Below, piece by piece: positions 11,005-56,843 of a stretch of 63,276 nt of DNA (the first letter of the stretch is position 1; each line of letters starts with the position of its first letter). Source of the stretch: Bacteroidaceae bacterium (GTDB taxonomy: Bacteria > Bacteroidota > Bacteroidia > Bacteroidales > Bacteroidaceae); the NCBI GenBank assembly GCA_017469925.1, contig JAFUFK010000004.1:1-63276 (forward strand). Direction: 5' to 3'. Position numbers and translations under genes: made by a program. The notes under the pieces were generated by a model. The model made no database searches, was not told where the DNA came from, and worked only from the letters and a program-made list of their open reading frames with translations.

Positions 11005-11344
11005 CAAATATACCGATTCTTATTTATCGTACACGCGCTCACGCGTACGCTCGCACATGCGCGTTGGAAACCAGTGACTGGTTAAGCCGAAACCAGTCAC
11101 TGGTTTCGCCGAAAGGAGTGACTGGTTAAATTTTAACCAGTGACTGGTTGCTGGGGAAGCAGATTCTCGTCCAGGGCGGACAGATTTGCCGTTTCCGATT
11201 ATTTTCGCAAGTTACAATTCGGACCAAATTTAGTTAAAAATCGCCCCAGTCAATTTTTGACAGCAAAAAATTTGGTGGTTTTTTGTTTTATTCCGAAATT
11301 TGTCCACGAAACAACATGCAAACCTTAAACAACAAAAGCCAACT
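11005..11344. other. Non-coding region between trkH and a secreted-protein gene
   Basis: Holds an alternating GC-rich stretch near 11029-11064 (repeated ACGCG/CGCTC words), the four-unit 22-bp dyad array at 11069-11149, then AT-rich sequence running to the next start. No ORF with coding character, RNA gene or clear promoter consensus was found. Confidence 0.7.
11069..11149. repeat. Four dyad units with exact 22-bp pitch
   Basis: The 15-base odd palindrome AACCAGTSACTGGTT starts at 11069, 11091, 11113 and 11135, always 22 bases apart. Copies 1 and 4 have G in the centre, copy 2 has C, and copy 3 has two changes in its left arm. The 7-base spacers differ. This could be an operator array or small hairpins. 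Confidence 0.9.
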
Positions 11345-12172
11345 ATGAAAACATTATTACTCTTATTCGTTTTAAGTCTCCCCTCAATTGATACAAGTGC
11401 TCAGAACCCTGGCTACCATCCCTTCATAGAGGAAGGGAAAGTGTGGACGGTGGGGCGATACCCCATGGGAGACTCACATCTCACACCATCCAGTTTTTCT
11501 CAGTATTACTTCGACGGGGACACCATCATTGGTGGCCGCATTTGCAAGCGTTGGATGAAGGATGGGGAGCTCATCGCTCCCCTCTATGAGGAAGACCGCA
11601 GAGTGTACCTCTTCAGAAAGGGAGAGAGCACACCACGGCTCCTCTACTCCTTCAGCGCCCAGAAAGGAGATGAGATAGCAGCATTTTCCTTCATCGAAAG
11701 CGAGGAAACCGTTTGTCACGTTGATAGCGTTTACCTCACCGGTGTTGACGACAAACTACACGCCTATCGCCTATATGACGACATTGTTTATGACAGGTAT
11801 TGGAATAAAGTTTTTGAATCCAAGGATTATAATGAAGCAGACAGTATGGAATATAGTTCAAGGTTCAAGGAGATGTATTGCTATACCTGGATTGAGGGTG
11901 TAGGAGGTGATGTACCATTGGAAGACAACCATGTGGGAATCGAAGGTTGGTCGGGTAATGTCGAATGTTTGATTCAGGTCCGTGTCGGAGACATAATCAT
12001 TTACGAGATTCCCGACGCCAACTGGGGAGAGAACGGCATCGCAACTACGGAGTGCACGGAGAAGTCTGGGCATTCGCAGGCCGTCTACGACCTCAGCGGC
12101 CGTCGCATCGGCGACGGACAGCGGGGGCTGAAGATACAGGGAGGAAAGAAGTTCCTTGTGCCTTTGCAATAG
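11345..12172 (+). CDS. Secreted protein of unknown function with type IX-like C-terminal tail
   Basis: 275 aa. A signal peptide (MKTLLLLFVLSLPSIDTSAQ) is followed by a globular region with no recognised domain; it contains the repeated-looking strands KVWTVGRYPMG and FDGDTIIGGRICKRWM. The C-terminus VYDLSGRRIGDGQRGLKIQG resembles the short sorting tails of Prevotella and Bacteroidales type IX secretion substrates. The frame extends 15 codons upstream, but the ATG at 11345 begins the signal peptide. It has its own terminator just downstream. Function unknown. Confidence 0.82.
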   Translation: MKTLLLLFVLSLPSIDTSAQNPGYHPFIEEGKVWTVGRYPMGDSHLTPSSFSQYYFDGDTIIGGRICKRWMKDGELIAPLYEEDRRVYLFRKGESTPRLLYSFSAQKGDEIAAFSFIESEETVCHVDSVYLTGVDDKLHAYRLYDDIVYDRYWNKVFESKDYNEADSMEYSSRFKEMYCYTWIEGVGGDVPLEDNHVGIEGWSGNVECLIQVRVGDIIIYEIPDANWGENGIATTECTEKSGHSQAVYDLSGRRIGDGQRGLKIQGGKKFLVPLQ

Positions 12173-12197
12173 GAATTTCAGTCTTTACATAAAAAAC

Positions 12198-12240
12198 CAT
12201 CCGAGGCGGCTCCTACGGAAGTCGCCTCGGATGCGTTTTT
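12198..12240. terminator. Bidirectional rho-independent terminator
   Basis: Perfect 11-bp stem CATCCGAGGCG (12198-12208) with CGCCTCGGATG (12223-12233), followed by a T run on the plus strand and preceded by an A run. It can end both the secreted-protein gene and, on the minus strand, nadB. Confidence 0.9.
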
Positions 12241-12275
12241 TACTTAATTATATATTACGCGTGTAAGCCTGGGCC

Positions 12276-13865
12276 TCACTTCTGGTCGTAGGCGTGCTTG
12301 GGGTAGTCGATGGTGTAGTGCAGGCCTCGGCTCTCCTTGCGCTCGAGCGCCTGGCGGGTGATGAGGTAGCCGACGTTTATCATGTTGCGGAGCTCGCAGA
12401 TGTCCTTCGTGGGCTTCACACGCTTGAAGAGTTCCTCGGTCTCCTCGTACAACAGGTCGAGCCTGGTCCAGGCACGATGGAGGCGCAGGTCGGAGCGGAC
12501 GATGCCCACGTAGTTCGACATAATCTGGCCCACTTCGCGCATGTCTTGGGCAATGAGGACCTTCTCCTCGTTCGACATCGTGCCCTCGTCGTTCCACTCC
12601 GGCACCTGGTCGTTGAACTGGTATTCGTCGATGTGTGCGATGGAGTGCTGGGCAGCCTTGTCGGCATAGACCACGGCCTCGATGAGCGAGTTCGAGGCCA
12701 GGCGGTTGCCGCCGTGCAGTCCCGTGCACGAACATTCGCCTACGGCATAGAGGCGGCGGATGGTGGATTGGCCGTCGAGGTCAACCTTGATGCCGCCGCA
12801 CATGTAGTGGGCCGAGGGGCAGACGGGAATCATCTGCCGGGTGATATCAATGCCGATAGAGAGGCACTTGGCATAGATGTTGGGGAAGTGGTGGCGGGTC
12901 TCCTCGGGGTCTTTATGGGTAACGTCGAGGCAGACGTGGTCGATGCCGTGAATCTTCATCTCGCGGTCGATGGCGCGGGCCACGATGTCGCGTGGGGCCA
13001 GGGAGAGGCGCTTGTCGTACTTCTGCATGAACTCCTCGCCGTTGGGCAGTTTCAGTATGCCGCCGTAGCCGCGCATGGCCTCGGTGATGAGGTAGGCGGG
13101 ATGGGTCTCGGCGGGGTTGTAGAGCACCGTCGGGTGGAACTGTACGAACTCCATGTCCTTCACGATTCCCTTGGCACGATAGACCATGGCAATGCCGTCG
13201 CCCGTGGCGATGTTGGGGTTCGACGTAGTGGCATAGACGGCTCCCGTGCCGCCCGTGGCCATCAGGGTGACGCGCGAGAGGAAGGTATCCACCTTCTGCG
13301 TGTCGGGGTCCAGTATGTAGGCGCCGTAGCACTCGATGTCGGTCATGTGGCGGTTGACCTCACGGCCCAGGTGGTGCTGGGTGATGATTTCCACGGCATA
13401 GTGGTTCTCCAGGACGGTGATGCGTTTGTTCCGACGGACGGCCTCCATCAGTCCGCGCTGAATCTCGAATCCTGTGTCGTCGGCATGGTGCAGGATGCGG
13501 AACTCCGAGTGGCCTCCCTCGCGATGCAGGTCGAAGTCGCCCTTCTCGTCCTTGTCAAAGTTCACGCCCCAGCGTACCAGGTCCTTGATGCCGTCGGGGG
13601 CGTTCCTGACCACCTGCTCCACGGCCTGCGGGTCGCTGATGTAGTCGCCCGCAATCATGGTGTCCTGAATGTGCTTCTCGAAGTTGTCAAGTTCCAGGTT
13701 CGTCACCGAGGCTATGCCACCCTGTGCCTTGGCCGTGTTGGCCTCGTCGAGGGTAGTCTTGCAGACCAGGGCAATCTTGCCTTTGCCCGATTTTGCCACC
13801 TTCAGTGCATAACTCATGCCGGCCACACCGCCGCCAATAATAAGGAAATCGAATTTGCGTATCAT
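12276..13865 (-). CDS. nadB: L-aspartate oxidase
   Basis: FAD enzyme that oxidises L-aspartate to iminoaspartate, the first step of de novo NAD synthesis. 529 aa from the chosen ATG (MIRKFDFLIIGGGVAGMSYA), which starts directly on the FAD-binding fold; eight extra in-frame codons upstream were not used. Further signatures: ANTAKAQGGIASV, EGGHSEFRILHHADDTG, QFHPTVLYNP, APRDIVARAID and CGGIKVDLDGQ. The partners nadA and nadC are not nearby. Monocistronic by position, convergent with the preceding secreted-protein gene. A CAAATTTA (-7 on the minus strand) is at 13889-13896. Confidence 0.97.
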   Translation of the reverse strand: MIRKFDFLIIGGGVAGMSYALKVAKSGKGKIALVCKTTLDEANTAKAQGGIASVTNLELDNFEKHIQDTMIAGDYISDPQAVEQVVRNAPDGIKDLVRWGVNFDKDEKGDFDLHREGGHSEFRILHHADDTGFEIQRGLMEAVRRNKRITVLENHYAVEIITQHHLGREVNRHMTDIECYGAYILDPDTQKVDTFLSRVTLMATGGTGAVYATTSNPNIATGDGIAMVYRAKGIVKDMEFVQFHPTVLYNPAETHPAYLITEAMRGYGGILKLPNGEEFMQKYDKRLSLAPRDIVARAIDREMKIHGIDHVCLDVTHKDPEETRHHFPNIYAKCLSIGIDITRQMIPVCPSAHYMCGGIKVDLDGQSTIRRLYAVGECSCTGLHGGNRLASNSLIEAVVYADKAAQHSIAHIDEYQFNDQVPEWNDEGTMSNEEKVLIAQDMREVGQIMSNYVGIVRSDLRLHRAWTRLDLLYEETEELFKRVKPTKDICELRNMINVGYLITRQALERKESRGLHYTIDYPKHAYDQK

Positions 13866-13967
13866 GGTATTTGTATTTGAATTGCCCACAAATTTACATA
13901 AAAAAGGTTAATCCGTATGCGCCCATACCCAAATAATTTGTAACTTTACGCCAAAAGACATGCATCT

Positions 13968-15203
13968 ATGCGCAGATACGCCCTTCTTTTAGCCCTCTTC
14001 TCTGTGGCCCTGACGGTAAAGGCCGACGGAGTCCGATACAATTCCAACACCATCCTTCCCGACGACACCACGACATGGACGGGCCGCATGCAACGGCAAA
14101 TCGACTCGCTCGTCAACCTGCCCCTGTTCGAGACTACGCAACTGGGACTCTACGTCTATGACCTGACCGACGGGCGCGACCTCGTATGCGTCAACCACCG
14201 CCAGCGGATGCGCCCGGCCAGTTGCGAGAAGGTGGTCACCTCGGTCTCGGCCCTCCACCATCTGGGCCCCTCGTACCAGTTCCGCACCCAGATGTTCGTG
14301 ACGGGCGAGGTGCGCGACAGCGTGCTCTGGGGTGACGTCTGCTTCGTAGCCGGCATGGACCCCCTGCTGGCCCAGGGTGAGGTCTATCAGATGGCCCGTG
14401 CCCTGCGCGAGGTGGGCATCGACAGCCTGGCGGGTGTCATCACGCTCGACCTCTCCTTCAAGGACCAGGACGACCGTGGATGGGGCTGGTGCTGGGACGA
14501 CGATGTGGCTCCCCTGCGCCCCCTGCTCGTCGATAAGCACGACCGCTTTACGGCCGAACTGCTGGCCGACCTTCGCAACCTTGGCATCCGGGGGGCTTCG
14601 CTCGACCGCGTCATGCAGGGGCCCTGCCCACCGTCGGCCCGCCTGTTCTGTGAGGTCACACACACTATCGACCAGGTGCTCGACCGCATGATGAAGCGCT
14701 CCGACAACTACTACGCCGAGAGTCTCTTCTACCAACTGGCAGCCCTCAGCGGTCGCAAACGCGCCACCCGTAAGGAGGCCGTCGGCTACATCGACCAACT
14801 CATCCGCCAGGTGGGCCTCAACCCCGCCGACTACCAGATAGCCGACGGCTCGGGCCTGTCGCTCTACGACTACGTCAGTCCCGAACTGCTCGTCCGTCTG
14901 CTCCAACATGCCTGGCAGAACGAACCCATCCGCGCCCACCTATACCCCTCGCTGCCCATAGCCGGAGTCGATGGTACGCTGGAGAAGCGCATGCGCCGAA
15001 CGGCGGCCGAGGGCAACGTACACGCCAAGACGGGCACGGTCGATGGCATCGTCAGCCTTAGCGGCTACTGCACCTCGCCCGAGGGCCACGTGCTCGTCTT
15101 CAGCATCATCAACCAGGGCATCTCGCGTGCCGCACAGGGGCGCAATTTCCAGGACCGCGTCTGCGAGGCATTGTGTGGGGGGGAATTGAGAATGGACAAT
15201 TGA
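13968..15203 (+). CDS. dacB: D-alanyl-D-alanine carboxypeptidase / endopeptidase (PBP4 type)
   Basis: Periplasmic penicillin-binding protein of 411 aa that trims peptidoglycan cross-links. Signal peptide MRRYALLLALFSVALTVKA. All three active-site motifs of the S13 family are visible: S85-C-E-K88 (SxxK), SDN around residue 245 and KTG around residue 350 (HAKTGTVDG). Shorter than E. coli PBP4 (about 477 aa), mainly because the inserted domain between the first two motifs is reduced. A TAACTTTA -7-like element sits at 13941-13948. Confidence 0.92.
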   Translation: MRRYALLLALFSVALTVKADGVRYNSNTILPDDTTTWTGRMQRQIDSLVNLPLFETTQLGLYVYDLTDGRDLVCVNHRQRMRPASCEKVVTSVSALHHLGPSYQFRTQMFVTGEVRDSVLWGDVCFVAGMDPLLAQGEVYQMARALREVGIDSLAGVITLDLSFKDQDDRGWGWCWDDDVAPLRPLLVDKHDRFTAELLADLRNLGIRGASLDRVMQGPCPPSARLFCEVTHTIDQVLDRMMKRSDNYYAESLFYQLAALSGRKRATRKEAVGYIDQLIRQVGLNPADYQIADGSGLSLYDYVSPELLVRLLQHAWQNEPIRAHLYPSLPIAGVDGTLEKRMRRTAAEGNVHAKTGTVDGIVSLSGYCTSPEGHVLVFSIINQGISRAAQGRNFQDRVCEALCGGELRMDN

Positions 15204-15223
15204 TAATTGAAAATTGAAGAGAT

Positions 15224-16459
15224 ATGAACTACAAACTCATTGTACTCGACGTTGACGGCACATTGCTCAACTCGAACCGCGAACTGACAAAGCGCACGGT
15301 ACAGACCCTGCGCAGGGTACAACAAATGGGTATCAAGGTGGCACTGGCCTCGGGCCGACCCACTTACGGCATACTCCCCATCGCACGGGAGCTCGACCTG
15401 GGCGTCTATGAGGGCTACATCATCTCGTACAATGGTGCGCAGGTCATGGCGGCCAAGGACGGGCAGGTCATCTTCGAGCGTCGCATCGACCCCCAGATGG
15501 TGCCCTACCTCGAAAAGAAAGCCGCCAAGATGGGCTTCACCATGGCCTACTACGACGGCAACGAAGTGGTCTCGACCGACATCGAGAATCCCCACGTACG
15601 CGACGAGGCTGAGATGAACGGCATGACCCTGCGGCAGGACGACGTCATCTCGCTCAACATGGACGACTGGCCCGCCGAAATCATGCTCGTCAGCGACGAT
15701 GAGGAGGCACTCAGCAGTCTCGAACAGCACATGCAGCGCCACCTCAACGGCGTCATGGACACCATCCACTCCAACCCCTACTACCTCGAAATCGTCGGCT
15801 ACCAGGTGGGCAAGAGCCACGCCATGAGTGCCCTCGTGCAGAAGATGGGCATACAGATGAGCGAGGTGCTGGCCATCGGCGACGGCGAGGCCGACATCAA
15901 CATGATACAGATGGCCGGCACGGGCGTGGCCATGGCCAACGCCACCGAGGGTGTACGGCGCTGTGCCGACTTCACCACCCTCTCCTGCGACCAGGATGGT
16001 GCGGCCCTGGCCATCGAGAAGGCTATCATGGAGGAGGTGCGCATTGCCGACGTGCCCATCGATGCCATGAACGCCCAAAGCGGTTCGACACTCATGGGCA
16101 ACCTGGGCATCCAGTACACCTTCGCCAGTGCCGAGCGCGTAGAGGCTACGATGCCTGTCGATCACCGCACACGACAGCCCTTTGGCATCCTCCACGGCGG
16201 AGCTACCCTGGCCCTGGCCGAGACCGTGGCCGGACTGGGTTCGATGATAGCCTGCCAGCCCGACGAATTCGTCGTCGGCATGCAGGTCAGCGGCAACCAC
16301 GTATCCAGCGCCCACGAGGGCGACACGGTCCGTGCCGTCTGCACACCCGTCCACCTGGGCCGCTCGAGCCACGTATGGAACGTCGATGTCTTCACCTCCA
16401 CCGACAAACTCGTCTCCAGCATCCGCGTCGTCAACTCCGTCATGAAGAAACGCGGCTAA
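15224..16459 (+). CDS. Fusion of Cof-type HAD phosphatase and hotdog thioesterase (MenI/PaaI-like)
   Basis: Two full domains in one 411-residue chain. Residues 1 to about 265 are a HAD-IIB (Cof) phosphatase: VLDVDGTLLNSN (motif I), ALASGRP (II), VGKSHAM (III) and IGDGEADINM (IV; the usual Asn of GDxxND is Ala). Residues about 275-411 are a hotdog thioesterase with MNAQSGSTLMGNLGIQYTFA, DHRTRQPFGILHGGATLALA and the acidic catalytic residue of AETVAG. The latter pattern matches 1,4-dihydroxy-2-naphthoyl-CoA hydrolases of menaquinone synthesis. The reading frame is continuous with no stop or frameshift sign at the junction. Either half could be annotated alone by mistake. Confidence 0.88.
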   Translation: MNYKLIVLDVDGTLLNSNRELTKRTVQTLRRVQQMGIKVALASGRPTYGILPIARELDLGVYEGYIISYNGAQVMAAKDGQVIFERRIDPQMVPYLEKKAAKMGFTMAYYDGNEVVSTDIENPHVRDEAEMNGMTLRQDDVISLNMDDWPAEIMLVSDDEEALSSLEQHMQRHLNGVMDTIHSNPYYLEIVGYQVGKSHAMSALVQKMGIQMSEVLAIGDGEADINMIQMAGTGVAMANATEGVRRCADFTTLSCDQDGAALAIEKAIMEEVRIADVPIDAMNAQSGSTLMGNLGIQYTFASAERVEATMPVDHRTRQPFGILHGGATLALAETVAGLGSMIACQPDEFVVGMQVSGNHVSSAHEGDTVRAVCTPVHLGRSSHVWNVDVFTSTDKLVSSIRVVNSVMKKRG

Positions 16460-16507
16460 TTAAACAATTAAACCCTTAAACGATTAAACTTTTAAACGAT
16501 TAAACTT
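16460..16507. repeat. Three tandem 16-bp AT-rich units before a start codon
   Basis: Units start at 16460, 16476 and 16492: TTAAACAATTAAACCC, then two copies of TTAAACGATTAAACTT. The array ends 11 bases before the antiporter ATG at 16519 and so lies in its leader. Confidence 0.9.
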
Positions 16508-16518
16508 TTACAAAAGAA

Positions 16519-17808
16519 ATGGAACAAATTCCCGCTTGGCTGCTCATACCCTTCGTGGTACAACTGCTTTGTATCGCCATTCTGCCCCTGACACGCCTGG
16601 GTGAGTGGTGGGAGAGCAACCTCCACAAACTCTACGTTTCACTCGTCCTCGGCGGTGGTGTTGCCGCCTGGTTCTTCGTCGGCGGCCACGGTGCCGAAAT
16701 CGAGCACCAGATGCTCTACGACTACGTGCCCTTCATCCTGCTCCTGATGGCCCTCTTCACCACCACGGGCGGCATCTGCATCAAGGGCGACCTCAAGGCC
16801 ACGCCCCTAACCAACTCCTGTATCCTGGCCCTGGGCTACGTCCTGGCCTCGTTCATGGGCACGACGGGAGCCGCCATGCTCCTCATCCGCCTGCTCATCC
16901 AGACCATCAGCCAGCGCAAGTACAAGGCCCACACCATCCTCTTCTTCATCGCCATGGTGGCCAATTGCGGCGGCATACTGACGCCTTTGGGCGACCCACC
17001 ACTCTTCCTGCTCTTCCAGCGTGGAGCCCACTTCACGTGGTTTATGGGCATGTGGCCTGAGTGGCTCACCTGCGGCCTCCTGTTGCTCGCCATCTACTAC
17101 GCCATAGATACCTACTACTACCGTCGCGAGCCCGAAGAACACCTTGCTGCGGACCACGCCGAGCAGGTGCGCGTCACGGCCACGGGTCTCATCAACATTC
17201 TCTGGCTCCTGTGCGTCGTACTGAGCACGATGTTTATCAACAAGACCTACATCCCACAGATGGGTGCCGAGGATGCCCCTTGGTACCTCCGCCTCCTGCG
17301 CGAGTGGGTGTTCATACTCATCATCCTTCTGTCCGTCCTTACCACTAAGCGTAAGGTGCGCCAGGCTAACGACTTCTTTTGGACGCCCATCCTCGAGGTA
17401 GCTTGCGTCTTCGTCGGCATCTTCGCCACAATGACGCCCGCCCTTATGTTCCTGCGCCAGCACCCTCTGCCCGTCACCGAGCCTTGGGAGTTCGTCTATG
17501 CCACGGGAGCCCTGTCGGCCTTCCTCGACAACGCCCCCACGGCCATGGTATTCCACGCCACCGCCACCTCGTTGCCCATCGAGGGCGTAGCCGTAGCCGG
17601 TGTGAGCGAGATCTACCTCCGTGCCATCTCCATGGGTGCCGTCTTCTTCGGAGCCCTCACCTACATTGGCAACGGCCCCAACTTCATGGTCAAGAGCATT
17701 GCCGAGCAGAGCGGCATCCGTATGCCCTCCTTCTTCGGCTACATGCTCAAGTTCTCGCTCATCATCCTCCTGCCCGTTTACATCTTGGTGCAGTTGATAT
17801 TCCTGTAA
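16519..17808 (+). CDS. Sodium:proton antiporter / citrate-transporter-like membrane protein
   Basis: 429 aa with 11-12 hydrophobic segments, of the ion-transporter superfamily. Conserved stretches include FTTTGGICIKGDLKATPLTN, FMGTTGAAMLLIR and NCGGILTPLGDPPLFLLFQ in the first half and LSAFLDNAPTAMVFHATA and YIGNGPNFMVKSIAEQSGI in the second, giving the two inverted-repeat halves with re-entrant loops. The NAPT and GNGPN motifs are typical of NhaD-like and related antiporters. Likely ion or carboxylate exchange across the inner membrane; the substrate is not proven. Followed by a strong terminator. Confidence 0.85.
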   Translation: MEQIPAWLLIPFVVQLLCIAILPLTRLGEWWESNLHKLYVSLVLGGGVAAWFFVGGHGAEIEHQMLYDYVPFILLLMALFTTTGGICIKGDLKATPLTNSCILALGYVLASFMGTTGAAMLLIRLLIQTISQRKYKAHTILFFIAMVANCGGILTPLGDPPLFLLFQRGAHFTWFMGMWPEWLTCGLLLLAIYYAIDTYYYRREPEEHLAADHAEQVRVTATGLINILWLLCVVLSTMFINKTYIPQMGAEDAPWYLRLLREWVFILIILLSVLTTKRKVRQANDFFWTPILEVACVFVGIFATMTPALMFLRQHPLPVTEPWEFVYATGALSAFLDNAPTAMVFHATATSLPIEGVAVAGVSEIYLRAISMGAVFFGALTYIGNGPNFMVKSIAEQSGIRMPSFFGYMLKFSLIILLPVYILVQLIFL

Positions 17809-17818
17809 AACAAAACGT

Positions 17819-17854: not shown

Positions 17855-17873
17855 ACTAAGGTCTGGTAAGATT

Positions 17874-33545: not shown

Positions 33546-33635
33546 GCATCATTACGTCCTTACACGTGCAACAATAGTAAAGATGCAGCTGTAACTTCCT
33601 GGTCTTACACGTGTATCTTTAGTAAAGATGCAAAC
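33546..33635. repeat. Alternating units with 45-base period (about 2 x 22.5)
   Basis: CTTACACGTG occurs at 33559 and 33604, and TAGTAAAGATGCA at 33576 and 33621, both 45 bases apart. Subunits begin with G[CT]A[AT]C-like words at intervals of 22 and 23, so the period can be read as alternating half-units. No ORF is implied. Confidence 0.7.
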
Positions 33636-33847
33636 CTATCTTCCTGACCCATAACGAAAATTTCCGTTCCTTTCTGATAAACAGTGCGTTACACATGGTT
33701 TGGGGCATACCCCCTGGCCGGGCTCTCCTCCTTGGATTAATTCCTTTGAAGATGTAAATATTTTTCTTCACCTTTTTCACCTAACCTCCCTATAGCGTGG
33801 GAAGGTTGTGCAAACCGAGAGTAGAGCCAAACTTCGCTAAAAACAGA

Positions 33848-35274: not shown

Positions 35275-35380
35275 TACTTTAATCTTGATATACAAAGTTT
35301 GCGGGGCAAATTTACACATTTTCACTCAATTACAAGCACTTTCCACCTTAAAAAGTAAAAAAGTAGGGAGGAATCGTACC

Positions 35381-35410
35381 AAATCCGGTCAAATCCGGTC
35401 AAATCCGGTC
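35381..35410. repeat. Three perfect 10-bp direct repeats
   Basis: AAATCCGGTC three times in a row (35381, 35391, 35401). The array ends 21 bases before the -7 of the HU-like gene, so it overlaps the place of the missing -33 element. A 10-bp pitch puts all copies on one face of DNA. Confidence 0.92.
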
Positions 35411-35431
35411 AACCGTATGGCGCACTTGTCG

Positions 35432-45826: not shown

Positions 45827-45871
45827 AGTCTCTGTTTTTAGGTTTGTGTGTGTTTCTGGTAAACGACACTG

Positions 45872-45879
45872 CAAAGATA
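45872..45879 (-). promoter_or_regulatory. -7 element of the fuc cluster
   Basis: TATCTTTG on the minus strand, 45 bases before fucI. No clear -33. Confidence 0.65.
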
Positions 45880-45964
45880 GTGAAAACCTCTTGTAGAACG
45901 AAAAATATATGCTTAAAAAACTAACACGTTTGCTTCACGATGCCATTGCCGCGACCCTACGTCG

Positions 45965-46071
45965 GCACGTAAAGTTAACCTGCGCGTGTAAGTTAAGTTT
46001 ATCGAGGCCCCTCAGTTAAGTTAACAAAAAGGCCTCAGTTAAGTTTACATGAAGGCCTCAGTTAAGTTAAC
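45965..46071. repeat. Five units with exact 23-bp pitch
   Basis: The core CTCAGTTAAGTTWAC starts at 46011, 46034 and 46057; degenerate copies at 45988 (GTAAGTTAAGTTTAT) and 45965 keep the same 23-base spacing. Perfect copies include the odd dyad GTTAAGTTAAC. Lies between the fucI and metK promoters. Confidence 0.9.
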
Positions 46072-46114
46072 CTACAAAAGCAGGGTCGGAAAGTCGCTGA
46101 AAAATGGAAATATA

Positions 46115-46146
46115 TTTGCTTATTCGCATTCTATGTATTAATTTTG
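46115..46146 (+). promoter_or_regulatory. metK promoter
   Basis: TTTG at 46115-46118 and TAATTTTG at 46139-46146, spacer 20. It predicts a leader of about 150 bases before metK. Confidence 0.8.
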
Positions 46147-46161
46147 CACCCGAAAACGACA

Positions 46162-46215
46162 TGTGGATAGATTTGGGCTGCTTGCAACCACACTAAAAAA
46201 TGCTAAAACGACGAC
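46162..46215 (+). ncRNA. Possible SAM-II-like riboswitch in the metK leader
   Basis: In the predicted metK leader, TGTGG (46162-46166) can pair with CCACA (46188-46192). The enclosed GATTTGGGCTGCTTGCAA and the following TAAAAAATGCTAAAACG resemble the SAM-II aptamer order GATTT..TTGCAa, P1, then AAA..GCTAAA. The pseudoknot P2 of SAM-II could not be drawn convincingly by hand, so this is a weak call; Infernal with the SAM-II model would decide. Confidence 0.3.
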
Positions 46216-46286
46216 CTGCGCGTCACTGCATTCTCTCCTCCCCTTGCTACACAGCCTTATTCGCACCACATAATTATGAAATTATG

Positions 46287-46313
46287 AATTGTGAATTGTG
46301 AATTATGAATTAC
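46287..46313 (+). repeat. AATTRTG heptad linker over the metK start
   Basis: AATTGTG AATTGTG AATTATG AATTAC; the last ATG is the metK start (46305). The same 27 bases occur at 50344-50370 before yidD. Confidence 0.9.
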
Positions 46314-49993: not shown

Positions 49994-50351
49994 TCCCTAC
50001 GTCTTTCGCAAGGCCGAGCGACTATGTAGCAGAAAACGCATTGAAGCACTATTCGCAGGAGGTAGCCGTTCTCTCTCGGCCTATCCCCTGCGTGCTGTTT
50101 TTAGGAAAGCAGACGGCGGCCAGTTGCTCATCTCCGTCTCCAAGCGCCACTTCAAACATGCCGTCGATCGCAATCGCGTGAAGCGCCTCATCCGCGAAGC
50201 CTATCGCCTCAACAAACACCTGCTCACCAACCAGTTCGGCCCGGGCCGTCTCGACCTTGCCCTCATCTGGATGAGCGATGAAATGGCCGATTTCTCCACC
50301 ATCGAGGACCGCGTAAGGAATCTCTTGCAACGAATCGGAGAGCAATTGTGA
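49986..50351 (+). CDS. rnpA: Ribonuclease P protein component
   Basis: 121 aa basic protein that assists RNase P RNA in tRNA 5' processing. FRKAERLCSRKRIEALFAGG at the start, then VSKRHFKHAVDRNRVKRLI and REAYRLNKH carrying the RNR motif. The stop codon lies inside the same heptad linker that holds the yidD start. The rpmH-rnpA link of many bacteria is absent here. Confidence 0.95.
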   Translation: MPNPYVFRKAERLCSRKRIEALFAGGSRSLSAYPLRAVFRKADGGQLLISVSKRHFKHAVDRNRVKRLIREAYRLNKHLLTNQFGPGRLDLALIWMSDEMADFSTIEDRVRNLLQRIGEQL

Positions 50352-50370
50352 ATTGTGAATTATGAATTAC
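50344..50370 (+). repeat. AATTRTG heptad linker over the rnpA stop and yidD start
   Basis: Same 27 bases as at 46287-46313. It contains the rnpA stop TGA (50349-50351) and the yidD ATG (50362). Confidence 0.9.
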
Positions 50371-51164: not shown

Positions 51165-51226
51165 TTTCTTTGCCCTGATAGTTACGATTTTGTAAGTAAA
51201 TGGGGACGATTTCCATTTTTTTGTAT

Positions 51227-51234
51227 TACTTTTG
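51227..51234 (+). promoter_or_regulatory. -7 element before the peptidase C1 gene
   Basis: TACTTTTG, 22 bases before ATG 51257; no clear -33. Confidence 0.5.
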
Positions 51235-51256
51235 TGCTAAATACTTAATACGGACT

Positions 51257-52651
51257 ATGAGAAAATTATTGTTTTTAGCCATTTTCTGCTGTGCATCGGC
51301 CGTGGCTCAGCAGACGATTACCCCCGAAGTGTTAACACAACTGGAGCAGACCGCCACCCCGACAGGGGCAGAACGGGCATTGCAGAACGCCATCCAGTCG
51401 AACTCCATCAACAAGATGGCGCTTGTGCCTGGCAACCAGCAGGCGCTGGATACATGGTTCTCGGTGGAGGTGCAGAACTCGGGCATCTCGAATCAGGAGA
51501 GTTCGGGCCGTTGCTGGCTCTTTACGGGCACGAATGTGCTCCGCCAGCGGGCCATGAAGAACCTGGGCATCGAGGGCTTCATGTTCAGCCACGTCTATCT
51601 CTTCTTCTACGACCAACTGGAGAAGTCGAACCTCTTCCTGCAAGGCATCATCGACACCCGACGGGAGGACATCGACTCGCAGCAGGTGCAGTGGCTCATG
51701 CAGAACCCCATCTCGGACGGCGGTACCTATACGGGTGTGGCCGACCTGGTGATGAAGTACGGACTAGTGCCGAAGGACGTCATGCAGGAGACCTACGTGT
51801 CGAACTCCACCAGCGAGTTCAACGGCCACCTGAAGCGTAAACTGCGCGAGATTGCCATCAACCTGCGCGAACGTAGCGAGGCCGGACAGAGCGTGAAGCA
51901 ACTGGAGGCCTACAAGGTGGAGCAGCTGAAGACCATCTACAAGATGCTCACCCTGGCCTACGGCGAACCCGTGAAGGAGTTTACCTGGGCACCACGCGAC
52001 AAGAAGGGCAAACTTATTGGAGAACCGAAACGATATACCCCGCTCTCGTTCTACAAGGAGGTGTGCCAGCCCGAGGAAGACCTGAACGCCGACTACGTGA
52101 TGCTGATGAACGACCCCAGCCGACCCTTCAACAAGGTATATGAAATAGATATGGACCGCCACATGTACGACGGTCACAACTGGCTCTACCTGAACCTCGA
52201 CATCGACGACCTGGCCCCCCTGGCCATTGCCTCGCTGCGGGACAGCGTGCCCATGTACTTCTCGTGTGACGTGGGCAAGCAACTGAACCGCCAGAATGGA
52301 CTGCTCGACATCCGCAACTACGACTACAACGACCTCCTGGGCACCCAGTTTGGCATGACAAAGAAGCAGCGCATACAGACGCGCGACTCCGGCTCGAGCC
52401 ACGCCATGACCCTCGTGGCCGTTGACCTCGACCAAGAGGGCAAGCCCACAAAGTGGAAGGTGGAGAACTCCTGGGGCCCGACGTATGGCTATAGCGGTCA
52501 TCTGATTATGACCGACGAGTGGTTCCGCGAGTACATGTTCCGCGTGGTCGTGAACCGCAAGTACATCCCTGCCGACATGCTCCCCCTGCTGAAGCAGAAA
52601 CCCACCAAGTTGCCCGCCTGGGACCCGATGTTCCAACAAGAAGAGAATTAA
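51257..52651 (+). CDS. Exported aminopeptidase C / bleomycin-hydrolase-type C1 peptidase
   Basis: 464 aa. Signal peptide MRKLLFLAIFCCASAVAQ before a C1B papain-like enzyme. Catalytic Cys in ESSGRCWLFTGTNVLR, His in SGSSHAMTLVAVD and Asn in WKVENSWGPTYGY are all present. Usual PepC enzymes are cytoplasmic; the signal peptide makes this an exported form, as in several Bacteroidales. It would act on periplasmic peptides. The 19-codon longer frame upstream was not used because ATG 51257 begins the signal peptide. Confidence 0.88.
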   Translation: MRKLLFLAIFCCASAVAQQTITPEVLTQLEQTATPTGAERALQNAIQSNSINKMALVPGNQQALDTWFSVEVQNSGISNQESSGRCWLFTGTNVLRQRAMKNLGIEGFMFSHVYLFFYDQLEKSNLFLQGIIDTRREDIDSQQVQWLMQNPISDGGTYTGVADLVMKYGLVPKDVMQETYVSNSTSEFNGHLKRKLREIAINLRERSEAGQSVKQLEAYKVEQLKTIYKMLTLAYGEPVKEFTWAPRDKKGKLIGEPKRYTPLSFYKEVCQPEEDLNADYVMLMNDPSRPFNKVYEIDMDRHMYDGHNWLYLNLDIDDLAPLAIASLRDSVPMYFSCDVGKQLNRQNGLLDIRNYDYNDLLGTQFGMTKKQRIQTRDSGSSHAMTLVAVDLDQEGKPTKWKVENSWGPTYGYSGHLIMTDEWFREYMFRVVVNRKYIPADMLPLLKQKPTKLPAWDPMFQQEEN

Positions 52652-52687
52652 GAATTAAGAAAGAAGAATTAAGAATTGATAGGTATT

Positions 52688-53596
52688 ATGGATAAGAGAA
52701 TTCGCGTAGCCATCGTTGGTTATGGCAACATTGGGCGATACGCCCTACAGGCAGCCGCAGAGGCTGCCGACATAGAAGTGGCCGGCATCGTACGCCGACA
52801 GGGTATGAAGGACTGCCCACAGGAACTGATGGGCTACAAGGTAGTGACCGAGGACATGGTCGAGGAACTGGGCCACGTAGATGTGGCCATCCTGGCCACC
52901 CCCACCCGCAGCGTCGAGGAGTACGCCAAGCGATTCCTGGCCCGAGGCATCAATACGGTCGATTCGTTCGACATCCACGGACAGATTGTTGACCTGCGCC
53001 GTTCGCTCGACAAGGTAGCCAAGGAACATGGAGCCGTCAGCATCATCTCCGCCGGATGGGACCCCGGAAGCGACAGCATCGTGCGCACCCTGATGGAAAG
53101 CCTCGCCCCACGAGGAATCACCTACACCAATTTCGGTCCGGGCCGTTCGATGGGTCACAGTGTCTGTGTGCGTTCGAAGGCTGGCGTCCGCGATGCCCTC
53201 TCGATGACCATTCCCGTTGGCCAGGGCATACACCGCCGCATGGTCTATGTGGAACTGGAGCCGGGTGCTGACCTGGAGGAGGTGACCCGCGCCATCAAGG
53301 CCGACCCCTACTTCGCCTCCGACGAGACCCACGTCTTCCAGGTCGAGAGCGTAGATGCACTGAACGACGTCGGCCACGGCGTGAACCTCGTCCGCAAGGG
53401 TGTCAGCGGACAGACCCACAACCAAATCTTCGAGTTCAACATGAAGATTAACAACCCCGCCCTGACGGCTCAGGTACTCGTCAACGTAGCCCGTGCCTCC
53501 ATGCGTCAGCAGCCCGGTTGCTACACGATGATAGAACTGCCCGTCATCGACATGCTCCCCGGCAATCGCGAGGACATCATCCGACACTTGGTGTGA
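52688..53596 (+). CDS. ddh: meso-Diaminopimelate D-dehydrogenase
   Basis: 302 aa. NADPH enzyme giving meso-DAP in one step from tetrahydrodipicolinate. Rossmann start RVAIVGYGNIGRYALQAA, then AILATPTRSVEEYAKRFL, ISAGWDPGSDSIVR and TNFGPGRSMGHSVCVRSKAG are diagnostic. ATG 52688 was chosen over one 12 bases upstream. An AT-rich AAGAATTA linker precedes it. Confidence 0.95.
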   Translation: MDKRIRVAIVGYGNIGRYALQAAAEAADIEVAGIVRRQGMKDCPQELMGYKVVTEDMVEELGHVDVAILATPTRSVEEYAKRFLARGINTVDSFDIHGQIVDLRRSLDKVAKEHGAVSIISAGWDPGSDSIVRTLMESLAPRGITYTNFGPGRSMGHSVCVRSKAGVRDALSMTIPVGQGIHRRMVYVELEPGADLEEVTRAIKADPYFASDETHVFQVESVDALNDVGHGVNLVRKGVSGQTHNQIFEFNMKINNPALTAQVLVNVARASMRQQPGCYTMIELPVIDMLPGNREDIIRHLV

Positions 53597-53627
53597 TGGA
53601 AAGATTGAAAAATTAAGAAATGAAAAG

Positions 53628-54122
53628 ATGGAAGTAATCCAGAGTTTCACCATCGACCACACCCGACTGAAGCCGGGCATCTACGTATCGCGCGAGGACC
53701 GTGGCTTCACCACCTTCGACCTCCGCATCACCGAGCCCAACCAGGAGCCTGCCGTGGCACCCGCCGCCATGCACAGTCTGGAGCACCTGATGGCCACGTG
53801 GTTTCGCAACTCGGAAGCCAAGGAAGATGTCGTGTACGTAGGTCCCATGGGCTGCCTTACGGGCATGTACGTCATCATGACGGGCACGTACACCGTAGAG
53901 GACATGCGCCGGCTGACCATCCGCTGCCTCGAGTGGATACTCACGCAGGCAGAGGTGCCCGCCACCCGTCCCGAGGCCTGTGGCAACTACCTGCTCCACG
54001 ACCTGCCCATGTGCCAGTGGGAGAGCCGCCGCTACCTCCATCGCCTCAGGCACGATTTCCACTCGGAATACACCAAACTGCAGATTACGCTGGCCGACGG
54101 ACGCGTCTTTGCCGATGCCTAA
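53628..54122 (+). CDS. luxS: S-ribosylhomocysteine lyase
   Basis: 164 aa. Cleaves S-ribosylhomocysteine to homocysteine and DPD, the AI-2 precursor. Zn site H49-SLE-H53 and C118 (PEACGNYLLHD), catalytic Cys75 in VGPMGCLTGMY. The partner nucleosidase (Pfs/MtnN) is not here. It is preceded by an AT-rich linker and followed closely by a DUF3667 gene. Confidence 0.97.
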   Translation: MEVIQSFTIDHTRLKPGIYVSREDRGFTTFDLRITEPNQEPAVAPAAMHSLEHLMATWFRNSEAKEDVVYVGPMGCLTGMYVIMTGTYTVEDMRRLTIRCLEWILTQAEVPATRPEACGNYLLHDLPMCQWESRRYLHRLRHDFHSEYTKLQITLADGRVFADA

Positions 54123-54147
54123 AGTACAAGAAGTGAAAAGTGAAGGC

Positions 54148-55047
54148 ATGCTTATGAGACTAAAGAATGCGCTACGGCGACTGGACGCTATGCAGCAACG
54201 CGCCGACTACAACGTAACAAGGAGCGAGGAACGGCACACCTGTCCGCACTGCCAGAATAAGTACGCCGGTCACTATTGCCCGCAATGCGGACTGGGATGT
54301 GACAGCAGTCGATTCACGGCAAAGACCATCATGCGCAAAATGCTGGACGTGATAGGCTTCGAAGAAGATGGTCAGCACAGCCTCCTGCGCACCCTGCGCG
54401 ACCTCCTTTGGCGCCCGGGCTACATGATTCGCGACTACCTGGGCGGACACAGCCCCGCCTACTTCCAGCCCTTCAAACTCCTGCTTCTGCTGGTTCTCAT
54501 CTTCACGCTGCTCATTCACATGCTGGGCATCGAAGGCAGCACTGAGAGTTTCACCGAATCCATGAAGAAGGTCGCCGAACTCCAAGAGAGCGAAGCAGAG
54601 GTAGAGCGTATGGCAGCACCCCTCATCGCCTTAGCCGCCAAGGTGATACGGTGGTTCAGCGAAAACATGGCATACAGCATCATCCTCCAGAATATATTCA
54701 TCGTCACCGCCATCTGGAAGGTCTATCGGCGGCGCGCCCCTTACACGTGGTCCGAGACCTTCGTGGCACAGATGTACATCTGCTGCCAGTTCATGCTGCT
54801 CACCATCGCCGAGGTGCTCCTATTGCGTCGGTATTCGGCTGACGGCCTGTATCCATATCTCGTGAACGACTGGGTCGTTACCTTCGTCCTACTCTACGAC
54901 TTCTTCCAACTCTACGGCGAACGACGCTTCTGGCCCGCCCTGTGGCGACTCATCAAGGTAGATTTGTGGCTCATTCTCCAGTACGCCCTGCTCATACTTA
55001 TCGCCATCGCGCTGTTGGTCGTCTATCTTGCCATCCGCACTATGTAA
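54148..55047 (+). CDS. DUF3667 membrane protein with zinc ribbon
   Basis: 299 aa. A double-CxxC zinc ribbon (HTCPHCQNKYAGHYCPQCGL) at residues about 30-50, an amphipathic region, then five hydrophobic helices (LLLLLVLIFTLLIHML, YSIILQNIFIVTAIW and others). Start uncertain: ATG 54115 overlapping luxS, 54148 (chosen) or 54154. Function unknown. Lies 6 bases before the regulator gene. Confidence 0.82.
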   Translation: MLMRLKNALRRLDAMQQRADYNVTRSEERHTCPHCQNKYAGHYCPQCGLGCDSSRFTAKTIMRKMLDVIGFEEDGQHSLLRTLRDLLWRPGYMIRDYLGGHSPAYFQPFKLLLLLVLIFTLLIHMLGIEGSTESFTESMKKVAELQESEAEVERMAAPLIALAAKVIRWFSENMAYSIILQNIFIVTAIWKVYRRRAPYTWSETFVAQMYICCQFMLLTIAEVLLLRRYSADGLYPYLVNDWVVTFVLLYDFFQLYGERRFWPALWRLIKVDLWLILQYALLILIAIALLVVYLAIRTM

Positions 55048-55053
55048 CGGGAC

Positions 55054-56634
55054 ATGAAAGCATCGGCATACCTTATATTATTATGTATCGTACTGTCGGC
55101 CTGCACGGGCGGACAGACATCGAAGCCTCTCACCTCACGAAAGAAGCAGCCTTCCGACACGCTCTACACGAAGCAGAAGGCGATGGAAGTCTATGGCTAT
55201 CAGCCCCTGCGCGCCTTGCAGATAATCGACTCTGCCATCATCGTGGGCAATGTCAGTCCCGTCTGGAGCGACTTTCTCCGGGCACGCATCTACAGCCAAT
55301 CGGTAGCGGACGGCGGGCAGATAGACTCCTTGCTGGGCGGCCCCGACAAGGTGCGGTTCGATTCGGCTCACGTCATCGGCGAACGCCTCTTGCGCCACGA
55401 TTCCGTGAAGACCAGTCTTGGCTTTCAGCAAGATGTGCTGGAGATACTGGTTTACACGGCCCGACAGCAGCAGGACACTGCCCGCTGGCTCCGTTGGTCG
55501 CAGGAGTTGGTGGAGGTGTGCCACGCACAGGGAGCCGAGACCGAGGCCCTGCGCACCGAGGCCGAAGTAGGAAACATTCTCTGCTACATGGGCCATCGCG
55601 AACAGGGGCTGGCACGATTAGACAGCGTGATAGCCCTGCTGGACAATGCGGAAAACCGCCATTTCAACGAACTTGATGCCACCATTATCGCCCTGAAACG
55701 GAAAATCAACGTACTCAGCGACGAAGGCCACTACGTCGAGACACTGCCACTGGCACGCCGTATCATCGACCGCCTCGACGACTACGAGCAGCATCCCGAC
55801 GACTATCACGACAGCACCTACCGTGAGCCCGCGGACTCTGCGGCCAGGGCGGACTACATCCAGTTCTACCGCACCCAGGCACAGAGTTTCATCACCGCAG
55901 CATACGCCTTGCTGAGCGAACACGCCAACATGAGCGAGGCCTACGAACTGATAGAGCGCAGCGTGCGCGAGGCTACAGCCCGTGAGCACGTTGCCCGTTA
56001 CCATGCCCTGGAACAACAGATACTGCGTGACCAGGCCGAAAGCCGCAGTCGCATGATGACGTTCTTCGCCACGGCCTCTGCCCTGGGTCTGCTGCTCATC
56101 CTCTTCCTTGCAGCCCTGCTTTTCTACCAGAACCGGAAGATTCGTAAGAAGAACCGCGTGCTGGTGAGGATGATAGAGGAGACTCTCCCCCTGTCCCTCC
56201 CTGTGAGGGAGGGGAGCAATCACCATTCAGAGTGCGAAAGTTCCCAAAAGATAAAAGAAAGCACTCCCCTCCCTCGCAGGGAGGGGGCGGGGGAGAGTCT
56301 GTCGCTCTTTAATCAAATCGACACTGCCATCCGCACCGAGCGGCTCTACGCCAATGCTGAGATTCAGCGGAAGGACATCTGCGACCGCTTCGGCATTCGT
56401 CGCGATGTGCTCAACCTGTTACTCACCGACCACGCCGGCGGCCAGTCGTTCCCGGCCTACATCAACAACATACGTCTCTCCGAGGCTTGCCGGCTGCTGA
56501 GCACGGAGCCCGAAAAGACCGTCAACGCCATTGCTGAGAAAGTCGGCCTTTCGCCCCGCAACCTCCGCCGCCTCTTCGTCGACCAGTACGGCATGACACC
56601 CACCGAGTATCGCCAAGGGCTGCAAACCATTTAA
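55054..56634 (+). CDS. Membrane-anchored AraC-type regulator with TPR-like sensor region
   Basis: 526 aa. A lipoprotein-like N-terminus (LILLCIVLSACTGGQ) is followed by about 290 residues of helical TPR-like repeats, one transmembrane helix near 335-360 (FFATASALGLLLILFLAALLF), a linker, and a C-terminal AraC HTH (residues about 440-526: INNIRLSEACRLLSTEP, NAIAEKVGLSPRNLRRLF). The linker at residues about 376-415 (PLSLPVREGSNHH..ESTPLPRREG) is encoded by two inverted GC-rich palindromes. Signal unknown. Confidence 0.85.
   Translation: MKASAYLILLCIVLSACTGGQTSKPLTSRKKQPSDTLYTKQKAMEVYGYQPLRALQIIDSAIIVGNVSPVWSDFLRARIYSQSVADGGQIDSLLGGPDKVRFDSAHVIGERLLRHDSVKTSLGFQQDVLEILVYTARQQQDTARWLRWSQELVEVCHAQGAETEALRTEAEVGNILCYMGHREQGLARLDSVIALLDNAENRHFNELDATIIALKRKINVLSDEGHYVETLPLARRIIDRLDDYEQHPDDYHDSTYREPADSAARADYIQFYRTQAQSFITAAYALLSEHANMSEAYELIERSVREATAREHVARYHALEQQILRDQAESRSRMMTFFATASALGLLLILFLAALLFYQNRKIRKKNRVLVRMIEETLPLSLPVREGSNHHSECESSQKIKESTPLPRREGAGESLSLFNQIDTAIRTERLYANAEIQRKDICDRFGIRRDVLNLLLTDHAGGQSFPAYINNIRLSEACRLLSTEPEKTVNAIAEKVGLSPRNLRRLFVDQYGMTPTEYRQGLQTI
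56181..56299. repeat. Inverted pair of GC-rich REP-like palindromes, in frame
   Basis: Element 1 (56181-56219) has stem CCCTCCCT/AGGGAGGG around GTG; element 2 (56261-56299) has CCCCTCCCT/AGGGAGGGG around CGC and is inverted. The shared outer arms are GACTCTCCCCC and GGGGGAGAGTC. Both stay in frame in the AraC-type gene. Confidence 0.88.
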
Positions 56635-56649
56635 ATTGCATAAAGATGT

Positions 56650-56733
56650 CCAAGGTTATGAACGTGCGTTCCAAGGTTTGGTACGTGCGTTCATAAGTTT
56701 GGAACGCACATTCCAAACTTATAACCGGATTAG
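56650..56733. repeat. Four units with 21-bp pitch
   Basis: Units start at 56650, 56671, 56692 and 56713. Typical content CCAAGG then AACGTGCGTT; units 1 and 3 have dyads GAACGTGCGTTC and GGAACGCACATTCC. The last unit is degenerate. Confidence 0.8.
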
Positions 56734-56843
56734 GCATCGCGGTCTTAAGATTTATGCACCGTAGCCTTTCCGTTTTTGCATCGTAGTCTTTTCGCTTTTG
56801 CTTCGTAGAGCCAGACAGAATGCATTGTCTATTGCAGTGGAAT
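56734..56843. repeat. Five units with 22-bp pitch
   Basis: Units start with GCATCG, GCACCG, GCATCG, GCTTCG and GCATTG at 56734, 56756, 56778, 56800 and 56822. Similarity falls off after the first 12 bases in units 4-5. Starts exactly where the 21-bp array ends. Confidence 0.75.

Follow-up and report, generated by a model that had tools for sequence, protein, structure and literature searches.

The closest named element to the arrays analysed here is BrickBuilt of Porphyromonas. BrickBuilt of P. gingivalis (PMC4596501) exists in 19 dispersed, strictly intergenic copies whose 23-nt tandem units contain both conserved and variable positions; the unit number differs between strains and reaches 22.8, the copies have IS5-like terminal repeats and they form a single sequence family. 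Prevotella intermedia has PINSR, an intergenic repeat of 188 bp in 177 copies, which PMC4755523 presents as lineage-specific, devoid of terminal inverted repeats and of unknown function. REPs are palindromes of 20-40 bp that bear a GTAG or CGTC tag, their RAYT is a Y1 transposase, and the partners of a REP dimer lie mostly 20-100 bp apart, without one fixed pitch (PMC3733652); the same paper gives CRISPR repeats a size of 24-48 bp with regular spacers. Heptamer repeats are a common form of periodic intergenic DNA in the SPADE survey (PMC6344855).

The window, i.e. the whole stretch of 63,276 nucleotides analysed, contains five intergenic arrays with a pitch of about 21-23 bp. They had been proposed by the first-pass annotation, and all five were recovered by TRF outside the called genes:

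11067..11149, no strand assigned: array A, TRF unit of 22 bp x 3.8
33559..33646, no strand assigned: array D, TRF unit of 45 bp x 2.0, which corresponds to a pitch of 22.5 bp
45956..46071, no strand assigned: array B, TRF 46010-46071 with a unit of 23 bp x 2.7, the wider extent taken from the lag-23 match
56649..56720, no strand assigned: array C, TRF 56649-56706 with a unit of 21 bp x 2.8, the extent taken from the dyad analysis
56751..56808, no strand assigned: array E, TRF unit of 22 bp x 2.6, unit TTTTTGCATCGTAGCCTTTCCG

Array A consists of four units of the palindrome AACCAGT-S-ACTGGTT at a pitch of 22 bp, the third being degenerate, with local dyad centres at 11076, 11087, 11098, 11109, 11131 and 11142. 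Array B has five units with a GTTA-N3-TAAC-type core at a pitch of 23 bp and by the lag-23 match begins at about 45956, i.e. before the TRF limit of 46010; it is flanked by the genes for fucose isomerase (- strand) and metK (+ strand), and a SAM-II riboswitch lies downstream of it. Fucose- or galactose-related genes adjoin three GTTA arrays (this one and those at loci L051 and L035), too few to count. Array C, directly past an AraC-type gene, has about three units at a pitch of 21 bp, in which CCAAASTTTGG dyads alternate with AACGTACGTT-like ones. The dyads of array D have cores resembling TGCATCTTTACTAAAGATGCA and TACACGTGTA, with local centres at 33585.5, 33588.5 and 33622 and another at 33660.5, slightly past the array end. 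The dyad significance test covered arrays A, B, C and E, with array D outside it, and three of the four were significant (A, p=0.005; B, p=0.010; C, p=0.015). Array E showed no significant dyad (p=0.81).

A scan of the kind suggested by the first-pass annotation gave a strong excess at lags 22-23 relative to shuffled DNA, and this excess recurs in other species. The scan covered the window and a further 800 kb of the same genome (together 863 kb, ~30% of the genome; 295 intergenic regions, 68,073 bases), where intergenic tandem repeats of 15-60 bp are almost confined to lags 22 and 23 and their doubles. Strong self-matches were present in 21 intergenic regions at lag 22, in 10 at lag 23 and in three each at lags 21 and 24, and again in 14 at lag 44 and seven at lag 46; each lag from 25 to 43 had one region or none. 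At lag 14, 13 regions matched. These are heptamer repeats, a separate known class that accounts for lag 14 and for some of lag 21 and was filtered away, short-unit repeats having been removed ahead of the wider lag counts. Three dinucleotide shuffles of the intergenic DNA gave no match at any lag from 12 to 60, and length-matched gene-internal segments gave none at lags 22 and 23 and one each at 21 and 24. Together with the removal of short-unit repeats, these controls exclude chance and low complexity as the source of the excess. A separate count at lag 22 gave 20 intergenic and 2 gene-internal matches, intergenic DNA making up 68 of the 863 kb; the counts vary slightly between scans of this genome because genes were called by two simple home-made callers.

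The same pitch recurred in four further species of the genus, with samples of 154-200 kb per relative, and was thinner in other Bacteroidales, the named loci being sorted into Bacteroidales or not by their record titles; in an E. coli control of 100 kb the arrays were not found. In the genus genome G011 the raw matches were equally numerous between and inside genes (4 each at lag 22, 3 each at lag 23), with intergenic DNA comprising 19 of 200 kb. The arrays have a median of 3.9 units. Searching a viral collection with two pattern families produced one and zero contigs with a match, which argues against a phage origin.

Palindromy accompanies the pitch in most arrays of the genus. Significant dyads were observed in 53 of 81 arrays across five species of the genus and in 11 of 23 arrays of other Bacteroidales; the dyad was not significant in the other 28 genus arrays, only 1/8 being significant in G016 and 2/6 in G011, and several long blocks are non-palindromic (L035:6123-6285 and the first halves of L029 and L045). 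Among the cores, which were read by eye, two families keep an exact pitch. All 28 intergenic pairs of exact GTTAN3TAAC cores at most 120 bp apart lie at multiples of 23, and all 30 such pairs of TGCCAN4TGGCA cores lie at multiples of 22, in counts made without any pitch requirement; of 55 shuffled palindromic cores used as a control, none had a pair at 21-23. With one mismatch allowed, the off-pitch pairs numbered 10 of 64 for GTTA and 1 of 37 for TGCCA, and 8 of the 10 GTTA cases were exactly 5 off a multiple. Published values put the helical repeat in vivo at 10.95-11.60 bp per turn (PMC1762422) or at 11 (PMC8501960); by the former values two turns measure 21.9-23.2 bp, which matches the pitch of the arrays. 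In one genus genome (G051) arms of several kinds hold one phase inside an array. Blocks with different cores joined in phase also looked striking by eye at L047, L038, L029 and L045; a per-block centre test of such joining was only suggestive for weakly palindromic blocks, and we place no weight on it.

The TGCCA family indicates which part of the unit is constrained. Across its 13 arrays and 51 units in this genome, the 12 core columns agree between neighbouring units in 92-100% of cases, with a single exception at 74%; agreement is 24-55% in the four middle spacer columns and 50-58% in the outer two. The core constancy is partly built in for G045 and for 7 of the 13 arrays of this genome, because these were found with a pattern that requires the core. 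Spacers resemble each other no more between neighbouring units than between different arrays; in the four central columns, neighbours show a somewhat higher likeness in this genome and not in G045. This gives little support to the earlier idea that a replication or repair process copies DNA in steps of 21-23 bp. Unit number in this family is specific to the species: 12 of the 13 loci in this genome have four units, 6 of 8 in a relative have three, and an array kept at the orthologous intergenic site of two species has 4 units in one and 3 in the other.

A structural or mutational origin would be another explanation of the same geometry. Hairpins or cruciforms would be extruded from the palindromes, with template switching keeping the palindromy and amplifying the sequence in steps of ~22 bases, which is consistent with the recurrence of palindromy in different sequences and with the several kinds of arm sharing one phase within an array of G051. 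However, 9 of the 51 TGCCA units carry a single-base change in the 10 fixed core positions, and there is not one compensated pair; loop-free full palindromes such as AACCATGGTT make poor hairpins; and a constant spacer length alongside drifting spacer sequence would not be expected of such a process. We regard this explanation as quite unlikely.

The first-pass annotation had taken the arrays to be specific to their loci, which proved wrong, since further copies of four of the five are present in the genome. Counting the window copy, array A is present in about 17 places, array B in 5 (more by pattern search), array C in 11 and array D in 4 (with copies at C3 and C16 and a 22-base match at C6), and a search of the genome with array E gave no separate match. 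Array A gave a single 34-base match in 60 other genomes of the genus. The three-in-a-row pattern of array B (at most 2 mismatches) has 60 matches in its own genome, 2 in G045, 2 in G032 and none in the remaining 58 genus genomes, and array C is present at least in G014, G027 and G037 among the matches listed. In the metK region of relatives the matches contain the riboswitch without array B, the two flanking genes falling in separate matches. Among the genomes, which are one per species, we sought empty, array-free sites and found none close enough in sequence.

Such dispersal could be that of selfish miniature elements of the BrickBuilt kind, which would carry a minisatellite, change by slippage or recombination, move by a transposase acting in trans, and have a pitch and dyad without function for the host. 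Array A is near-identical and dispersed, and among the 11 of its ~17 copies that were aligned, a left segment of ~60 bases beyond the array is present in 6 and a right segment of ~65 bases in 6; array C shares a left segment of ~60 bases in 3 of 8 copies. The TGCCA arrays C20:213639 and C12:42503 are alike in the array and unlike in their flanks, and unit number varies between species. BrickBuilt itself is a 23-nt intergenic minisatellite in which only 11 of 19 copies have pieces of the leader as well as the tail (PMC4596501). Since flanking segments, a trait of transposable elements, accompany part of the copies of arrays A and C, this explanation remains a strong rival. Still, slippage does not explain why unrelated sequences are allowed a single pitch, TGCCA spacers resemble each other no more within an array than between arrays, no flank is common between TGCCA arrays, and all 11 aligned copies of array A agree only in the array and ~10-20 bases on one side. 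Nor do the arrays have BrickBuilt-type ends above chance: IS5-type terminal repeats (four 12-mers, at most 2 mismatches, within 200 bp of the array) accompany 3 of 31 arrays and 4 of 31 random stretches, and inverted repeats 20-45 bp beyond the arrays are not in excess. We consider the selfish explanation a real possibility, though less likely than not.

The placement of the arrays takes no account of promoters. Arrays occur in 35 of 169 intergenic regions between tandem genes, 17 of 78 between divergent and 18 of 66 between convergent genes (p=0.55; rows at lags 42, 44 and 46 left out as doubles), so that the enrichment upstream of genes to be expected of promoter-linked operator arrays is missing. 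This is evidence against plain promoter regulation. The notion of a family of phased regulatory arrays is partly supported, as the pitch rule extends across unrelated sequences; the expected non-random placement is absent with respect to promoter layout and present in that the arrays are far rarer inside genes per base. The proteins flanking the TGCCA arrays and a few others (39, of which 24 have a Pfam match) have no functional theme, in a survey that left out 2 of 12 flanks in one set, several in another and one TGTCA array entirely; a regulon is therefore disfavoured. Hairpin arrays acting in untranslated transcripts as stabilisers, sponges or terminators would be compatible with the short stems that many units could form. 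Against them, no gene orientation is preferred and convergent and divergent gaps both hold arrays, the orientation of the centres is independent of the gene strand in G051 and G012 (by eye), and the sole Rfam match of the window at gathering threshold is the SAM-II riboswitch, outside the arrays. It is very unlikely that the arrays act in this way.

Our tentative reading, to which we give a little less than even chances, is that the arrays are mobile, helically phased clusters of putative sites for dimeric DNA-binding proteins. Each unit, a palindrome of ~10-16 bp in the families read, would be recognised by one dimer. A repeat every 21-23 bp would amount to two helix turns in the negatively supercoiled DNA of the living cell, so that a row of 3-5 dimers could occupy the same face of the DNA and cooperate in binding. 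Core and exact pitch are particular to each family, and so presumably is the protein. Selection would maintain core and pitch and let the spacers drift. Within a genome the arrays would move as discrete blocks ~40-120 bp long, with turnover from one species to the next. Because the neighbouring genes can have any orientation and, where examined, any function, our guess is that a bound array could be a nucleoid-organising or gene-insulating block. The binding-site reading carries a burden, as the many different cores of one genome would demand many different proteins; the arrays and long blocks lacking palindromy and the flanking segments of arrays A and C also count against it. If it is right, much of the tandemly repeated DNA between the genes of Bacteroidales would follow one spacing rule, this rule would point to a set of unknown DNA-binding proteins at work in the intergenic space, and the spacing would preserve, as a natural record, the helical repeat that DNA has in these cells.

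A broader version, which we consider unlikely though worth stating, is that the arrays represent a Bacteroidales-wide class of mobile intergenic DNA defined by geometry: 3-5 palindromic sites exactly two in vivo turns apart, with cores rewritten between families and species and read by fast-diversifying, filament-forming putative proteins.

How do the arrays compare with the known systems? They are not CRISPR arrays, as the whole unit measures 21-23 bp, and the heptamer repeats that also occur here (lag 14) have a unit of seven bases. With REPs and BIMEs they share dispersed extragenic palindromes that are frequently clustered, but the distance between REP partners is variable and the pitch here is fixed. 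RAYT-driven REPs are further disfavoured since a search of this genome (86% complete) for Y1_Tnp gave nothing over the Pfam cut-off and one match below it. In the order sample, 54 of 78 genomes have a match over the cut-off. Plasmid replication iterons likewise place their protein sites about two helical turns apart, but as direct repeats at origins of replication, and the arrays are palindromes scattered between chromosomal genes. Compared by description, PINSR is likewise intergenic, amplified, lineage-specific and without terminal inverted repeats, and differs in its repeat length of 188 bp. A literature search for a 22-23 bp intergenic rule, with subscription journals mostly outside its reach, brought the BrickBuilt, PINSR and REP papers as the nearest. 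BrickBuilt resembles the arrays in being a dispersed intergenic element of Bacteroidales with tandem units of ~23 nt. As for its leader and tail, the picture here is mixed, with flanking segments in part of the copies of arrays A and C and none in common between TGCCA arrays. The difference is that here many unrelated families, among them a TGCCA family without any common flank, have in common a pitch, palindromy and a small number of units.

All five arrays of the window, which lie in four intergenic regions, were recovered by TRF. The source genome is a 2.87 Mb draft, 86% complete, in which the window is an entire contig, and the genes flanking the arrays were predicted with a simple codon-usage caller. 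The best species-genome match of the metK gene in the window has 80% protein identity (best segment) and comes from an uncultured Bacteroides sp. MAG, followed by Bacteroidaceae and Bacteroides MAGs, which places the genome in Bacteroidales and probably in Bacteroidaceae. The features concerned are:

11067..11149, array A, pitch 22 bp
33559..33646, array D, pitch 22.5 bp
35380-35412, 10-bp tandem repeat CAAATCCGGT x 3.3, then a stretch ending GGCGCACTTGTCGTAACTTTGCA
45956..46071, array B, pitch 23 bp
46157-46216 (+), SAM-II riboswitch upstream of metK (Rfam RF01726, 54.2 bits)
46272-46312, heptamer tandem repeat AATTATG (TRF)
50344-50368, heptamer tandem repeat AATTGTG (TRF)
52644-52677, heptamer tandem repeat AGAATTA (TRF)
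56649..56720, array C, pitch 21 bp
56751..56808, array E, pitch 22 bp
57223-57263 (and 56169-56216), C+G-rich stem-loop CCCCTCCCTGTGAGGGAGGGG, about 40 bp, within a dihydroorotate-dehydrogenase-like gene

The excess of this spacing extends well beyond the window. We scanned the window plus 800 kb from two other contigs (~30% of the genome) for strong ungapped self-matches in 295 intergenic regions of 60-800 bp: 21 regions matched themselves at an offset (lag) of 22, 10 at 23, three each at 21 and 24, and 0 or 1 at each lag from 25 to 43, while the doubled lags 44 and 46 gave 14 and 7. Three rounds of dinucleotide shuffling yielded no self-match at any lag, and length-matched gene-internal segments none at lags 22 and 23; the genome-wide excess that the first-pass annotation had proposed to look for is thus present. 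When all ORF-covered DNA, seven to thirteen times larger than the intergenic DNA, was taken for comparison in five genomes, lag 22 occurred 20 times in intergenic against 2 times in gene-internal DNA of the own genome, 14 against 1 in G012, 19 against 2 in G051, 9 against 0 in G016 and 4 against 4 in G011. The same annotation would have abandoned its reading had the arrays been random relative to promoters and equally common inside genes. The first part agrees with our data, as arrays occupy intergenic gaps (120-900 bp) regardless of orientation (tandem 35/169, divergent 17/78, convergent 18/66, p=0.55), but the second does not, given the own-genome figures for lag 22. With short-unit repeats removed and the doubles 42, 44 and 46 left out, intergenic self-matches at lags 15-60 fall at 21-23 in 79/97 cases within the genus (five species). 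The fraction is 10/14 across nineteen more Bacteroidales genomes, of which one belongs to the same family and one yielded no intergenic DNA, 11/21 across 36 named loci that are Bacteroidales by title, and 2/10 across 44 loci assigned to other Bacteroidota. The density at lag 22 varies among genus samples, being rich in G012 (14) and G051 (18) and poorer in G011 (4) and G016 (6); 100 kb of E. coli K-12 contained no such arrays.

In many of these arrays the unit consists of a palindromic core and a spacer; the median array length is 3.9 units. Among the cores are GTTA-N3-TAAC and TGTCA-N7-TGACA at pitch 23, and TGCCA-N4-TGGCA, AAGATAGTTATCTT, AAGACGCGCGTCTT, AACCATGGTT and AACCAGTSACTGGTT at pitch 22. 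A column-permutation test found a significant dyad in 53/81 arrays of the own genome and four genus relatives (own 26/31, G012 11/16, G051 13/20, G011 2/6, G016 1/8); beyond the genus the figures were 7/12 in named Bacteroidales loci, 4/11 in the further genomes and 0/3 in other Bacteroidota. The pitch is exact even where spacing was not preset: all 28 intergenic pairs of exact GTTAN3TAAC cores within 120 bp lie at multiples of 23, and all 30 of TGCCAN4TGGCA at multiples of 22. With one mismatch allowed, 54/64 GTTA and 36/37 TGCCA pairs remain on pitch; eight of the 10 off-pitch GTTA pairs miss a multiple by exactly 5, the displacement expected from a spurious extra match, and two deviate otherwise. 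Among shuffled palindromic cores, 0/55 have a pair at 21-23. An unplanned result came from CAAT-N3-ATTG, the reversed control for three GTTA units in a row at pitch 23: it has 17 matches in G004, 4 in G027 and 3 in G025, so these relatives may carry arrays of another palindromic core at the same pitch.

The arrays had been described as locus-specific, which is wrong: A, B, C and D each match other places in the own genome. Counting the window copy, array A has about 17 places, C has 11, D has 4 (one a 22-base match) and B has 5 by BLAST and 60 matches for its three-in-a-row pattern; the search with array E returned no separate match. Outside the own genome, array A gave a single 34-base match among 60 other genus genomes, the GTTA three-in-a-row pattern is present in the own genome, G045 and G032 among 61 genomes, and array C occurs in at least G014, G027 and G037 among the matches listed. 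Arrays A and C resemble ordinary small elements more than the TGCCA arrays do, with flanking segments common to part of their copies: for A, a left segment in 6/11 aligned copies and a right segment in 6/11, the remaining copies sharing the array plus 10-20 bases only; for C, a left segment in 3/8. A near copy of the 35380-35412 repeat comes after an array A copy at locus L003. The SAM-II riboswitch region has matches in many genus relatives, whereas the adjacent array B has none such. Among the matches listed, many genus genomes also match the heptamer repeat at 46272-46312, which fits a known intergenic heptamer class, and the CCCCTCCCTGTGAGGGAGGGG stem-loop (mostly 90-100% identity).

The TGCCA family was searched as two adjacent units 22 bp apart with at most one mismatch. 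Such pairs occur in 6/61 genus genomes, of which the own genome has 39 matches, G045 has 14 and each of the rest has 1 to 5, and the reversed pattern gave 0 matches in the 61. Twelve of 13 own-genome arrays read have 4 units and one has 3, and six of the 13 were found by lag scan, independently of the core; in G045 six of eight have 3 units and two have 2. Variation is concentrated in the spacer, the core columns being almost constant. By hand averaging of per-column values, adjacent units resemble each other in the spacer no more than same-rank units across arrays do (mean 0.42 for both); in the four central columns adjacent units are the more alike in the own genome (0.61 against 0.48) but not in G045 (0.45 against 0.52). 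At one orthologous intergenic site the two species carry 4 and 3 units, and the three aligned units, counted by hand, differ at 0/36 core and 11/24 other positions, counts that depend on the detection of both arrays through their core; another shared gene neighbourhood has arrays of 4 and 2 units. The best sign that an array may move as a block is the own-genome pair C20:213639 and C12:42503, since the match spans the array and stops at its edges. The sole TGCCA contig matched in the viral collection, IMGVR_UViG_3300049733_000175, has four palindromes of this type (L328:421-511): three (454, 476, 498) are spaced 22 bp apart, preceded at 33 bp by a less perfect fourth.

Pfam matches were obtained for 24/39 flanking proteins, including ketopantoate hydroxymethyltransferase, dTDP-sugar epimerase, YgbB, UvrA, Hsp90, MFS transporters, sugar enzymes and a protein resembling threonyl-tRNA synthetase; no functional theme was seen among the 39. 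Three GTTA-type arrays, too few to judge, adjoin fucose/galactose genes (window 45827-46304, L051:17505-17754, L035:1632-2054), namely fucose isomerase, fucose pyrophosphorylase/kinase and galactokinase-like genes.

Excerpts of two studies on lac repressor looping give an in vivo helical repeat of 11 bp per turn (PMC8501960) and, from three fits, of 10.95 to 11.60 (PMC1762422), so that two turns correspond to 21.9 to 23.2 bp. The observed pitches are close to this range, with array C (21) slightly below. Palindromic cores, exact two-turn spacing and free spacers are what binding of dimers to one helix face would require. We consider it possible, at somewhat under an even chance, that the arrays are sites where dimers would sit side by side on one DNA face, one per core; the binding protein, its cooperativity and the effect of the array are inferred parts of this proposal.

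The closest named element is BrickBuilt of P. gingivalis, described in the excerpted report (PMC4596501) as 23-nt intergenic minisatellite units with a leader, a tail and IS5-like terminal repeats. Tandem intergenic units of ~23 nt occur here too. IS5-like terminal repeats showed no excess within 200 bp of the arrays (3/31, against 4/31 random stretches), and flanking segments that may correspond to a leader or tail accompany part of the A and C copies and are absent from TGCCA arrays. REP/RAYT elements differ by their Y1 transposase, for which the own genome (86% complete) has no match over the Pfam cut-off, and PINSR of Prevotella intermedia could be a relative. By these comparisons the arrays belong among dispersed intergenic repeats, a known kind; as far as our literature searches show, what is new is that unrelated sequence families obey one strict geometry.
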